Below are positions 20,432 to 31,685 of a DNA stretch of 36,529 nucleotides, one piece after another. The stretch lies in contig NW_003136831.1 of assembly GCF_000003605.2 (NCBI RefSeq), positions 66,695 to 103,223 on the forward strand, in the 5' to 3' direction. The stretch is from Saccoglossus kowalevskii. Taxonomy: Eukaryota; Hemichordata; Enteropneusta; Harrimaniidae. The position numbers and the translations under genes are program-made. A model generated the notes under the pieces. The model was not told the origin of the DNA, made no database searches, and worked only from the letters and a program-made list of their open reading frames with translations. How positions within the stretch are numbered: the first letter of the stretch is position 1; each line of letters begins with the position of its first letter.

Positions 20432-20971
20432 ATGAACGAATCCATCGGAATACAAAGCAAGCTACACGAAACTTACATCCTTCAAATTGTGGCTCATGTT
20501 TTGTTCATAGCGGTGACATGTGGCGTTTTCTTTGTCACGAGGTATTCTCCAAAACTGCGTCCCAATCACCGTATTGTGTTGGTATGTTATCCCGGGCATA
20601 CGGTCAAATGGATAGCCTCACTACTTCTCTTCATTGTGTCAGTCTTTGCATTGGCCGAAGGAATCCTGTTTGATATCTCACACAATTGCGTCACAAACGT
20701 GTACTTCTATCTGCCGCAATTGTTTTCATGTGTCTGTGTAATAACAAGCTTAGTGTACTATCACCATATCGAATACTGGGACAGGCCGCTTCTCGTATGT
20801 TGGTTGCTAGTGTACTGGGGAATTGCTATAATTGGCGAATTACTAGTAATGTTAAGACTCTCACTGGTAGCTACATTTGACGTGAACATTATTCGCTTCG
20901 ATATCAGTATGGTTCTTATCGTTCTGTACTTATTGTGTGCGATTTGTGACATCAATGTTCTTTGGACTAAG
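20432..20971 (+). CDS. ABCC8/9-like: SUR-like exon 1 (TMD0)
   Basis: 180 codons, phase-0 end at AAG|GTAAAG. It encodes the whole five-helix TMD0. [19 protein letters not shown] and [10 protein letters not shown] are the SUR-type signatures. The start ATG is the first after an in-frame TAG at 20426-20428. Confidence 0.9.
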
Positions 20972-29900: not shown

Positions 29901-31685
29901 TTTGGGTATCTTATTGTCCATATTTTACAGTCCAGCATATTTGAGTTAGCTAATTTTTCTTTCATTTCTACCACAGACCCATTCATTAGCCATTCTGTTT
30001 CTCTTGTTTCAACATGTTTCTCTTAAGCCTTTACATTTGTATTTAGTTAATCCTGGATGTTTTTGTGCTATTTTGCTGTTCGCTGATAAAGCACCATATT
30101 TTCACGGTATACAACACTATAAATTGCAGATATTTAAGATATTTAATTATTTTCTGTAGATTATCAATGGTACATTTTCGTGGACAGAAGACGCATGTGA
30201 ATCAGTTCTGAATAACATTAATGTAAAAATTCGAACCGGTAATATAGCTCAAATTGTTTCGATGGAAATTCGTGAACTGCAAAACATTAAATGAAACCCG
30301 GAAAATAATAAATGCATTGCTATTTTGTTAAGGTTCACTGAACATTATAGTAGGCGACGTTGGTTCTGGTAAATCTTCCTTACTATCAGCAATTCTTGGA
30401 GAGCTGTACACAGTGTCTGGAAAAATTATTTTTCCTGGGTGAGTGATTAACTCAATACAGGATTGCATGAAATTAAAACGCCGTATTTTATCATTACTAG
30501 ATCACGCATATTCGCTTAAACCTGGTTATTCACAGTACGTCAGTATAACCTGTGTTTGTACGTATTAATGACAACAATGTCTGAAAATGTACTCAGTCGT
30601 ACTTGTCAATAGGAACATCAATAAATACAACATTTCCAGCAAGAATTCAAGGTATTGTGTAATGCAATCTTTCCAATAGGAATGACAAGAGTTTGGCTTA
30701 CGTTGCCCAGGAAGGTTGGTTACAGAACGCATCACTCAGAGACAATATACTGTTTGGGGAAGAGTATTTACCTGAAAGGTGAGAGGAATAATGTTTGATC
30801 TTTAAATGAATCATACTTAACGTAAATTGTTTTATTGCGATGTTTGTTTGAAAACCGAAGCTAACACCAGCGGGTAACATGTACGATTATATTAGAACAT
30901 CATCTTTTAGGTTGAAGGGAAAATACAAACTGAAATATGATTCAGACAAACAGTGATGTGTACCGTCAATCATAATGCATAAACATGTTTTTTTTTTAAA
31001 TTTCGCAATGAATACAGTTGAACACGTAAATATTTAACATTTATTTCAATTACAGGTACGATGCAGTTATCAGTGTATGTGCATTGAAATTTGATTTACA
31101 AAACATACCTGGAGATAAGAAAGAAATTGGCGAGAAAGGTATTAATATAAGTGGAGGACAGAAACAACGAATTAGTCTTGCGAGGGCGCTGTACAGTAAT
31201 GTAAACACAGTATTGCTGGTTGGTATTCTTTCTATTACCCTAATATTTTCTGCGCAATTATATTTTGTACTTTATTTACGATATATGGAATCAAAACGAT
31301 TTATCACTATATATTATGTACATATATTATGTAACCTAGCAACTACAATTCAGAGAACATGTACACATGTAAGTAAGGATTTTTGGGTTGTGCCAACAAT
31401 ATATGTTATGTTTTCCCAGAAGTTGGAAAGGTTTGGACATGGTGTTAATATCATCAGCCACAGAGAGAGAAATTTACAATTAATGTAGCATATTTGCATA
31501 ATTTACACAGCATAAAGACTATATTACGTTATTTACAACACTTATAGGATGACCCCGTATCAGCCCTGGATGTACACGTGGCGGCTCACGTGATGGAAAA
31601 GGCGATTTTGCAATTTTTACTTGATGAGCATCGTACAGTAGTTCTTGTTACCAATCAAACTGAATATTTGGAACATGCAAATCAG
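20432..31685 (+). CDS. ABCC8/9-like: SUR-like ABC transporter (ABCC8/ABCC9 type), N-terminal half
   Basis: Fifteen exons join in one frame: 20432-20971, 21842-22075, 24733-24918, 26653-26805, 26886-27032, 27148-27282, 27743-27905, 28192-28232, 28341-28595, 29644-29775, 30160-30238, 30333-30438, 30680-30778, 31056-31218, 31548-31685 (857 residues). TMD0 has five helices (about 16-36, 58-80, 92-112, 119-140, 156-177); the L0 linker is about 180-270; TMD1 is about 280-580. NBD1 has A-loop W670, Walker [10 protein letters not shown] (696-704), Q-loop Q734, signature ISGGQ (788-792), Walker B Asp D812 followed by Asp not Glu, and SALD (816-819); at the H-loop N847 replaces His. Blocks such as [10 protein letters not shown] and SALDVH recall SUR. 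SURs gate Kir6 K-ATP channels in the plasma membrane; whether this one does is inference. The start follows an in-frame TAG with A at -3. TMD2 and NBD2 lie beyond the window or are lost. Confidence 0.9.
20996..21085 (+). repeat. 18-bp tandem repeat in intron 1, five copies
   Basis: Five copies of TATGTAATATACACCTCA (two carry CATCTCA) start 24 bp after the exon 1 donor. The period is a multiple of three and stop-free, so the exon 1 frame stays open through it (YVIYTS repeats). Diverged partial copies follow to about 21145. Confidence 0.92.
21842..22075 (+). CDS. ABCC8/9-like: SUR-like exon 2 (L0 linker)
   Basis: 78 codons between TTTCAACAAAG and GTAAGT, phase 0 at both ends. It encodes the cytosolic linker that leads to TMD1, including [12 protein letters not shown], which corresponds to the ATYWWMNTLI block of SUR proteins. 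Confidence 0.88.
22076..23295. other. Intron 2, first part
   Basis: AT-rich intronic sequence; nothing else recognised before the retroelement remnant. Confidence 0.6.
23296..24045 (-). pseudogene. Penelope-like retroelement remnant (RT and GIY-YIG end), antisense in intron 2
   Basis: Minus-strand fragments occur in the order of a Penelope-like element. First is an RT motif region [13 protein letters not shown] (about 23990-24030), in which the catalytic Asp-Asp pair expected in FIDDIF is replaced by Asn-Ile. Next come DTTIYVGK (about 23845-23870), [15 protein letters not shown] (about 23795-23840) and ALWMRRICS (about 23716-23745). Last, a C-terminal piece of the GIY-YIG endonuclease, [14 protein letters not shown], is followed at once by a stop (23296-23340). 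The pieces sit in different frames with stops between them. A 28-bp tandem duplication (23925-23946 and 23953-23974) adds a frameshift. The copy is dead. The upstream RT part is not recognised. Confidence 0.75.
24046..24732. other. Intron 2, last part
   Basis: No further retroelement domains were recognised. It ends in a good acceptor, TTTTCAATTTACACAG (24732). Confidence 0.55.
24733..24918 (+). CDS. ABCC8/9-like: SUR-like exon 3 (start of TMD1)
   Basis: 62 codons, phase 0 at both ends, donor TAT|GTGAGT. It encodes [14 protein letters not shown] and the first TMD1 helix up to [11 protein letters not shown], matching the PSIWLAMYRAFG...GPLCISGI arrangement of SURs. Confidence 0.88.
24919..26652. 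other. Intron 3
   Basis: 1734 bp. 25200-25960 contains stretches such as AAAATGGCTGCCTGGTCGCC that look like interspersed repeat sequence, but no ends are defined. It ends TTTCTTATAG. Confidence 0.55.
26653..26805 (+). CDS. ABCC8/9-like: SUR-like exon 4 (TMD1 helix)
   Basis: 51 codons between TTCTTATAG and GTAAGT, phase 0. It encodes [18 protein letters not shown] and the start of the following cytosolic helix ([10 protein letters not shown]), the position of INLRGALLAMIY in SURs. Confidence 0.87.
26886..27032 (+). CDS. ABCC8/9-like: SUR-like exon 5 (TMD1 intracellular helices)
   Basis: 49 codons between TTCATTCACAG and GTAAGA, phase 0. It encodes [13 protein letters not shown], then [16 protein letters not shown], the typical ABCC cytoplasmic loop that contacts the nucleotide-binding domains, then the next helix. 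Intron 4 upstream is only 80 bp. Confidence 0.88.
27148..27282 (+). CDS. ABCC8/9-like: SUR-like exon 6 (TMD1 helices)
   Basis: 45 codons between ATGTTTTAG and GTGAGT, phase 0. It encodes two closely spaced hydrophobic helices ([13 protein letters not shown] and [14 protein letters not shown]). Confidence 0.87.
27743..27905 (+). CDS. ABCC8/9-like: SUR-like exon 7 (TMD1 coupling loop)
   Basis: 163 nt, acceptor CTTGTATAG, donor GCAA|GTGAGT, ending in phase 1. It encodes [20 protein letters not shown], the highly conserved ABCC loop ([20 protein letters not shown] in SUR). A GC donor 4 bp upstream (TAT|GCAAGT) would change the phase and not match exon 8, so the GT site is chosen. Confidence 0.88.
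27986..28188 (+). repeat. TTTC microsatellite followed by ATTT microsatellite
   Basis: About 38 copies of TTTC (27986-28140) run directly into 12 copies of ATTT (28141-28188). They end two bases before the AG acceptor of exon 8. The TTTC part is purely pyrimidine on the transcript strand. Length is likely polymorphic. Confidence 0.98.
28192..28232 (+). CDS. ABCC8/9-like: SUR-like exon 8 (41-nt small exon)
   Basis: 41 nt between ATTATAG and GTAAGT. It begins in phase 1 and ends in phase 0, encoding [14 protein letters not shown], the first half of a TMD1 helix completed by exon 9. It fits the length between exon 7 and exon 9 in SUR proteins without a gap. Confidence 0.85.
28341..28595 (+). 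CDS. ABCC8/9-like: SUR-like exon 9 (last TMD1 helices)
   Basis: 85 codons between TTATTTTCAG and GTAAGT, phase 0. It encodes [20 protein letters not shown] and [18 protein letters not shown], matching the [20 protein letters not shown]...AIISVQKLNEFL pattern of SURs, then an acidic linker (TEEDYIDEH). Confidence 0.88.
28640..29340 (+). repeat. LTR-like dispersed repeat in intron 9
   Basis: 28669-28777 is copy B of the dispersed repeat seen at 246-356. Downstream there is a GAATAAAG signal near 28966, a degenerate array of GAGTCTTGG-like units (about 29010-29115) and a C/G-run-rich section with CAAGGGGGACGCG and TTCCCCCCTGA. The order of poly(A) signal followed by a GC-richer tail recalls an LTR, but no defined termini, target duplication or primer site can be shown. 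Confidence 0.4.
29644..29775 (+). CDS. ABCC8/9-like: SUR-like exon 10 (linker before NBD1)
   Basis: 44 codons between TGCCGTTTCAG and GTAAGT, phase 0. It encodes a Ser/Thr-rich linker ([12 protein letters not shown]) ending in PDIAVE, the first NBD1 strand. The linker is shorter than in vertebrate SURs, and no RKR-type ER-retention motif is visible in it. Confidence 0.8.
30160..30238 (+). CDS. ABCC8/9-like: SUR-like exon 11 (NBD1 A-loop)
   Basis: 79 nt between TTTCTGTAG and GTAATA, ending in phase 1. It encodes [17 protein letters not shown]; the Trp of FSW (W670) is the adenine-stacking A-loop residue. Confidence 0.88.
30333..30438 (+). CDS. ABCC8/9-like: SUR-like exon 12 (NBD1 Walker A)
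   Basis: 106 nt, phase 1 to phase 2, donor GTGAGT. It encodes [18 protein letters not shown] with an intact Walker A (K702), then [14 protein letters not shown], close to the SLLLAILGEMQTLEGKV of SURs. Confidence 0.92.
30680..30778 (+). CDS. ABCC8/9-like: SUR-like exon 13 (NBD1 Q-loop)
   Basis: 99 nt, phase 2 at both ends, donor GTGAGA. It encodes [20 protein letters not shown] with the Q-loop Gln (Q734). Confidence 0.92.
31056..31218 (+). CDS. ABCC8/9-like: SUR-like exon 14 (NBD1 signature)
   Basis: 163 nt, phase 2 to phase 0. It encodes [40 protein letters not shown] and [12 protein letters not shown]. The signature is ISGGQ, not LSGGQ. The donor CTG|GTTGGT is weak, but the join to DDP in the next exon restores a perfect Walker B. 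Confidence 0.9.
31548..31685 (+). CDS. ABCC8/9-like: SUR-like exon 15 (NBD1 Walker B, D-loop, H-loop)
   Basis: 46 codons between ACTTATAG and GTAAGC, phase 0. It encodes [20 protein letters not shown] and [18 protein letters not shown]. The usual His after VLVT is Asn. This is the last exon of the gene in the window. Confidence 0.9.

Follow-up and report, generated by a model that had tools for sequence, protein, structure and literature searches.

The stretch analysed here (the window) comprises 36,529 nucleotides of the hemichordate Saccoglossus kowalevskii (contig NW_003136831.1, positions 66,695 to 103,223 of the forward strand), and carries at 20432–31685, on its plus strand, a gene resembling the sulfonylurea receptors (SUR), SUR1/ABCC8 and SUR2/ABCC9. 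The exons found probably make up the 5' half of one member of an expanded set of SUR-like ABCC genes, the reading of which stops inside a long fifteenth intron consisting mostly of minisatellite. Reading from its first half, the gene is apparently intact. Its full product would consist of an N-terminal transmembrane domain (TMD0), a linker (L0), a first transmembrane and a first nucleotide-binding domain (TMD1, NBD1) and a second pair of these (TMD2, NBD2), in that order. Such a protein would be a putative regulatory membrane subunit, in which TMD0 may dock on a channel and the NBDs may sense nucleotides.

Fifteen exons were spliced into a single open frame of 857 residues without any stop, and the joins proposed in an earlier note on this sequence were reproduced with the same coordinates. 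None of 20,000 random sequences of matching composition and length stayed open. All 14 introns within the model began with GT and ended with AG; the 15 donors matched the consensus at between six and nine of nine positions, the lowest being those of exons 8, 11 and 14. The proportion of G-C at the first, second and third codon positions was 0.447, 0.350 and 0.403 respectively, and 0.331 in the introns. Two in-frame stops lie immediately 5' of the ATG in exon 1, and therefore the protein starts at that ATG or later.

Exon 1 (20432–20971, residues 1–180), which follows these stops, encodes TMD0; its first cysteine is residue 30, and none occurs ahead of the first membrane helix. Exon 2 (21842–22075, residues 181–258) encodes L0, and exon 3 (24733–24918, residues 259–320) the start of TMD1, with the donor gtgagt at 24919. 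An alternative end to exon 3 at 24906, giving 853 residues, had a poorer donor and was replaced by the 24918 boundary; the sister gene on contig C3695 apparently ends its exon 3 identically, as seen in a tblastn match. The whole-protein searches of PDB and Pfam used the 853-residue model. TMD1 continues through exons 4–9 (26653–26805, 26886–27032, 27148–27282, 27743–27905, 28192–28232 and 28341–28595; residues 321–618) and matched Pfam ABC_membrane at 63 bits in the 853-residue model, while exon 10 (29644–29775, residues 619–662) links TMD1 to NBD1. Exons 11–14 (30160–30238, 30333–30438, 30680–30778 and 31056–31218; residues 663–811) encode NBD1, with Trp670 in the A-loop, Lys702 in Walker A, Gln734 in the Q-loop and ISGGQ (788–792) as the signature motif. 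Exon 15 (31548–31685, residues 812–857) contains the Walker B motif (LLDDP) and the H-loop, and ends at the donor gtaagc. In Walker B, Asp813 occupies the place of the catalytic glutamate, and Asn847 (codon 31653–31655) replaces the switch histidine of the H-loop; with these two substitutions, NBD1 is predicted to be a non-hydrolytic ATP site.

The resemblance to SUR extended over the whole protein. When compared with all PDB chains, the 853-residue model scored 477 bits with SUR2, 450 with SUR1 and 286 with MRP1, and the SUR2 homology formed one unbroken stretch from residue 17 to residue 852. TMD0 and L0 alone gave ten distinct PDB matches at E ≤ 10, all ten of which were SUR1 or SUR2. TMD1 alone ranked SUR1 (139 bits) and SUR2 (136) above YCF1 (98) and MRP2 (95).

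Probable whereabouts of the second half

The earlier note had described the second half as absent, and had explained this either by a fifteenth intron of very large size or by truncation or breakage of the gene. No second-half exon was found in the window or in the readable contig, but a true half gene is not thereby shown, since the adjoining stretch reads as N. Pfam six-frame scans of 1–20000 and 22101–31999, which skipped 20001–22100 and the terminal array and were of limited sensitivity (the plus-strand scan caught pieces of NBD1 and missed TMD1), identified no TMD2 or NBD2 exon. When second-half proteins were compared with the readable contig by tblastn, the only matches were cross-matches to the window gene's own NBD1, or had E above 1. 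The contig, which is 139,975 bases long, extends past the window as N for tens of kilobases, followed by approximately 10 kb of readable sequence; it is within the N stretch that the second half of the gene would lie.

Relatives elsewhere in the genome (572 Mb searched, 4,830 contigs) provided a comparison. With the 857-residue protein as query, SUR-type TMD0 exons were found at at least 18 places on 14 contigs, the window included; this is a lower bound, being taken from the best 53 of 201 candidates. Second-half matches occurred on at least 10 of these 14 contigs, among the best 66 of 311 candidates, and need not be of SUR type on every contig. Exon matches of the sister gene on C3695 started in TMD0, covered TMD1, NBD1 and TMD2 in turn and reached a stop codon past NBD2; counterparts of exons 6 and 10 were seen as open frames, and the second half fitted within about 4.3 kb past exon 15 of this gene. 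The gene on C1142 served as a positive control, the second-half query identifying six exons there (E from 1e-33 to 1e-7). On C2467, C2120, C2916 and C421 the NBD1 and NBD2 matches were spaced by roughly 8–13 kb, a distance that would fit inside the N stretch.

A very large intron 15 was favoured because the window stops within the array, the contig continues as N, relatives possess second-half exons, and neither a stop nor a frameshift was seen. The half-length of the gene is thus most likely an effect of where the readable sequence ends, inside the long, minisatellite-filled intron 15. From 31686 to the end of the window at 36529, this intron measures at least 4,844 bases, in which no exon was found.

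The other explanation offered, true truncation, retains a lower standing and is unlikely. Under it, TMD2 and NBD2 would have been lost through a rearrangement in or close to the minisatellite, and the locus that remains would be decaying or dying out. In keeping with such a history are the lack of any second-half exon in what could be read of the contig, an intron 15 much longer than in the four sisters that allowed its measurement, a broken close relative on C2784 and a long TMD0 branch; however, the 15 exons are free of stops and frameshifts, and an N stretch of tens of kilobases exceeds the 4–13 kb that separate NBD1 from NBD2 in the sisters.

Divergence from the broken relative also bears on decay. 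In the C2784 copy (L040, L041), approximately 250 bp of exon 1 are missing; exon 3 contains a stop and is separated from exon 1 by about 8 kb, with its orientation reversed. Local alignments with this copy, a small sample restricted to parts of exons 1 and 3, showed differences at 26 of 296 first and second codon positions, 20 of 147 third positions and 62 of 372 noncoding positions. First and second positions differed significantly less than noncoding sequence (Fisher p = 0.0027), contrary to what truncation and decay would suggest, and the pattern roughly fits free decay on one side combined with constraint on the window side. These alignments superseded an initial global alignment, which was poor and in which, in the exon 1 comparison, noncoding sequence was no more different than the whole exon.

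Several observations weigh against an intact gene that continues beyond the window. The search for second-half exons downstream of the array that the earlier note had proposed produced none: the approximately 10 kb beyond the N stretch contained no ABC exon by tblastn or by Pfam (five of six plus-strand frame-stretches; one match, below the cut-off). None of the at least 78 matches to the genome-wide second-half query fell on the window contig. The contigs with a TMD0 exon and no second-half match, among the best 66 of 311 candidates, were C2850, C128, C460 and C2784; the last three likewise count on this side. Intron 15, at 4.8 kb or more, compares with approximately 110 bases on C3695, 230 on C1142, 650 on C2467 and 940 on C2120. 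Three of the splice donors (exons 8, 11 and 14; 6/9 each) are weak. Third codon positions did not differ from noncoding sequence in the comparison with C2784 (p = 0.43), and a relative-rate test on NBD1 was uninformative, with no consistent excess: p was under 0.05 in one of 12 comparisons, and there it was the window side that had changed less. The TMD0 branch of the window gene was long (1.16), exceeded only by those of C3381 and C2120 among the 19 rows of the tree described below. Finally, the switch histidine of NBD1 has been lost.

With regard to the last of these, the histidine was kept in seven of the eight other SUR-like NBD1s whose exon 15 could be read (C3695, C1142, C421, C2916 a and b, C2467 and C3160), while C2120 (L053), of the same TMD0 subgroup as the window gene, has asparagine in its place. 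In the sequence retrieved for C460, no exon 15 was found. On aligned sequence, the loss has precedents in YCF1, with asparagine, and CFTR, with serine. Both genes on C2916 (a and b) showed no exon 16 within approximately 1.5 kb.

A half-size TMD0–TMD1–NBD1 protein, made deliberately beside the full one through retention of intron 15, is very improbable. Reading through the donor would add six residues (VSYQTS) before two stops, and an AATAAA starting at 31883 could be proposed as the transcript end. Nevertheless, one AATAAA in some 340 AT-rich bases is close to what chance would give, and exon 15 finishes at a good donor (8/9); the coding sequence was not seen to end there.

The array into which the gene runs, as the earlier note had it, is a minisatellite at 32026–36528, beginning after the end of exon 15 at 31685 and reaching the window edge; it comprises approximately 263 copies of a 17-bp unit, GCCCATGACCATACCTT, with 81% matches. 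Two further repeats were observed. A TTTC microsatellite of about 50 units (27986–28184) lies in intron 7, directly before exon 8, and an imperfect tandem array at 985–1500 has a 19-bp unit (ACACACGTCATTTTTAAAA) with higher orders of 38 and 57 bp. Pfam matches away from the ABC exons were weak, and those on the minus strand coincided with the TTTC repeat. Over 1–20000, upstream of the gene, neither a Pfam domain (apart from one weak match below the cut-off) nor an RNA family nor a tRNA was recognised, and the window as a whole gave no match in scans for Rfam families and tRNAs.

Position among ABCC proteins

The earlier note had considered TMD0, the coupling loop and NBD1 to be more like SUR than like other ABCC proteins, and both the PDB rankings and the NBD1 trees agreed with this. 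NBD1 alone scored 235 bits with SUR2, 216 with SUR1, 211 with 'ABC transporter C family member 2' (going by its name, presumably a plant protein) and 208 with MRP1; by itself, this score separates the ABCC groups weakly. A maximum-likelihood tree of NBD1 with seven rows placed the window gene with SUR1 and SUR2 (support 100/99), and the same support for a SUR clade was obtained from nine rows, when the sisters on C3695 and C1142 were added. MRP1, MRP4, CFTR and YCF1 fell apart from this clade in both trees. The earlier note had proposed a tree with ABCC10 among its members; the SUR placement was recovered with ABCC1, ABCC4, ABCC8, ABCC9, CFTR and YCF1, in trees built without ABCC10, ABCC2, ABCC3 and ABCC5. 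Within the SUR group, a split of the nine-row tree with the window gene outside the other four SURs had support of 72/79, and a single clade of the window gene with C3695 and C1142 was neither shown nor rejected (approximately unbiased test, p = 0.209).

On these comparisons of sequence, the window gene appears to be a SUR-type (ABCC8/9) ABCC gene, and this assignment is well supported. That it belongs elsewhere in ABCC, being MRP-type or ABCC10 and only resembling SUR, is highly doubtful: NBD1 scores are close (235 and 216 bits for SUR2 and SUR1, against 211 and 208) and NBD1 identity is 53% to SUR2 and 48% to MRP1, but the TMD0 and TMD1 rankings favour SUR, as does the clade with 100/99 support in trees whose rows did not include ABCC10.

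Family expansion and Kir genes

A tree of TMD0 was estimated from 19 rows, these being 17 genome loci plus SUR1 and SUR2, with the C2784 copy omitted as broken. The 17 loci formed a single group opposite SUR1 and SUR2 (100/100). Judged from this tree, and set against vertebrates, the SUR-like set represents an expansion specific to this lineage. Some of its members are possibly non-working: in one of the copies on C3160 (C3160b) the exon is interrupted by a stop close to its end, and no start was seen for C3381. The TMD0 exon of C2120 runs into N, and the stretch on C4610 also holds N.

The N-terminal cysteines varied across the set. The window gene is without the CG...C cysteines that correspond to Cys6 and Cys26 of SUR1, while C3695 and C1142 carry the motif, that of C3695 aligning with Cys6/Cys26. 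The window gene belongs to a TMD0 subgroup of nine rows (90/91), and in none of these was the full motif present when the printed N-termini were inspected by eye. Other N-terminal cysteines occur in this subgroup, on C2916 (a and b), C460 and C4507 (a and b), and C4507a has CG. The Cys6/Cys26 pair is regarded as important for the SUR family; its loss was not treated as decisive here.

Vertebrate SURs are partners of Kir6 channels, which have a TIGFG filter. The same four Kir genes (L024–L027, on contig C2919) were identified with both PF01007 and PF17655, and all four have a TIGYG filter. Any channel partner among these four would therefore be without the Kir6 filter motif. L027, the only one of the four to be compared with PDB, scored 350 bits with Kir2.2, 340 with GIRK2 (Kir3.2) and 265 with Kir6.1. 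Neither profile identified a Kir6 gene on the window contig, where the earlier note had proposed looking for one downstream of the array, or in the readable genome, though N stretches could hide one.

Tentatively, approximately 17 SUR-like genes with no Kir6 pore gene left could represent a SUR fold cut loose from the classical ATP-sensitive potassium (KATP) channel. The window gene, which has neither catalytic residue in NBD1 nor an extracellular cysteine motif, would then be among the most altered members, and might work with Kir2/3-like pores, with another partner or alone. Taken singly, this gene is unremarkable, a divergent member of the SUR-like ABCC genes; the interest lies in the family, with its 18 or more TMD0 places, four Kir genes and no Kir6 found. 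Such a genome would allow one to ask what role SUR has without Kir6, and which features of TMD0 and the NBDs are lost once that link relaxes. No report of a SUR expansion in invertebrates was recognised in the literature, as covered mostly without subscription papers. ABCC9-like genes appear to be numerous in some echinoderm annotations, and novelty is not claimed for the expansion.

Comparison with known systems

The window gene has in common with SUR1/ABCC8 and SUR2/ABCC9 the order TMD0–L0–TMD1–NBD1, with a single continuous alignment to SUR2, and these two are the only PDB matches to its TMD0. Both also have aspartate in the place of the catalytic glutamate of NBD1, as do MRP1, MRP4 and YCF1. 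It differs from them in a TMD0 identity of just 27–28%, in having no CG...C motif, in the asparagine in place of histidine in the H-loop, and in that its second half was not seen; it also lacks the insert that SUR2 has ahead of the Q-loop. Yeast YCF1 and human CFTR resemble the window gene in having an NBD1 H-loop without histidine, and the NBD1 trees place both of them apart from the SURs.

Among other invertebrates, SUR homologues have been named in Drosophila (CG5772), Daphnia (Dappu-442500), Tetranychus (tetur11g05990) and Tigriopus (TJ-ABCC9) (PMC2680897, PMC3724490, PMC4247197). In passages of these genome surveys one SUR is named for Daphnia (PMC2680897), one for Tetranychus, together with three orthologues of pore-forming subunits (PMC3724490), and one for Tigriopus (PMC4247197); the proteins of Daphnia and Tetranychus are reported to have a TMD0 (PMC2680897, PMC3724490, PMC4247197). 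One SUR named per arthropod species in those passages contrasts with at least 18 TMD0-exon places here, a comparison made by description and not by sequence.

The sisters on C3695 and C1142 have an NBD1 identity to the window gene of 58% and 57% respectively. These differ from the window gene in keeping both CG...C and the H-loop histidine and in having a short intron 15, and C3695 differs further in running from TMD0 to NBD2. Wherever tblastn allows comparison, the exon joins of the first half agree between both sisters and the window gene.

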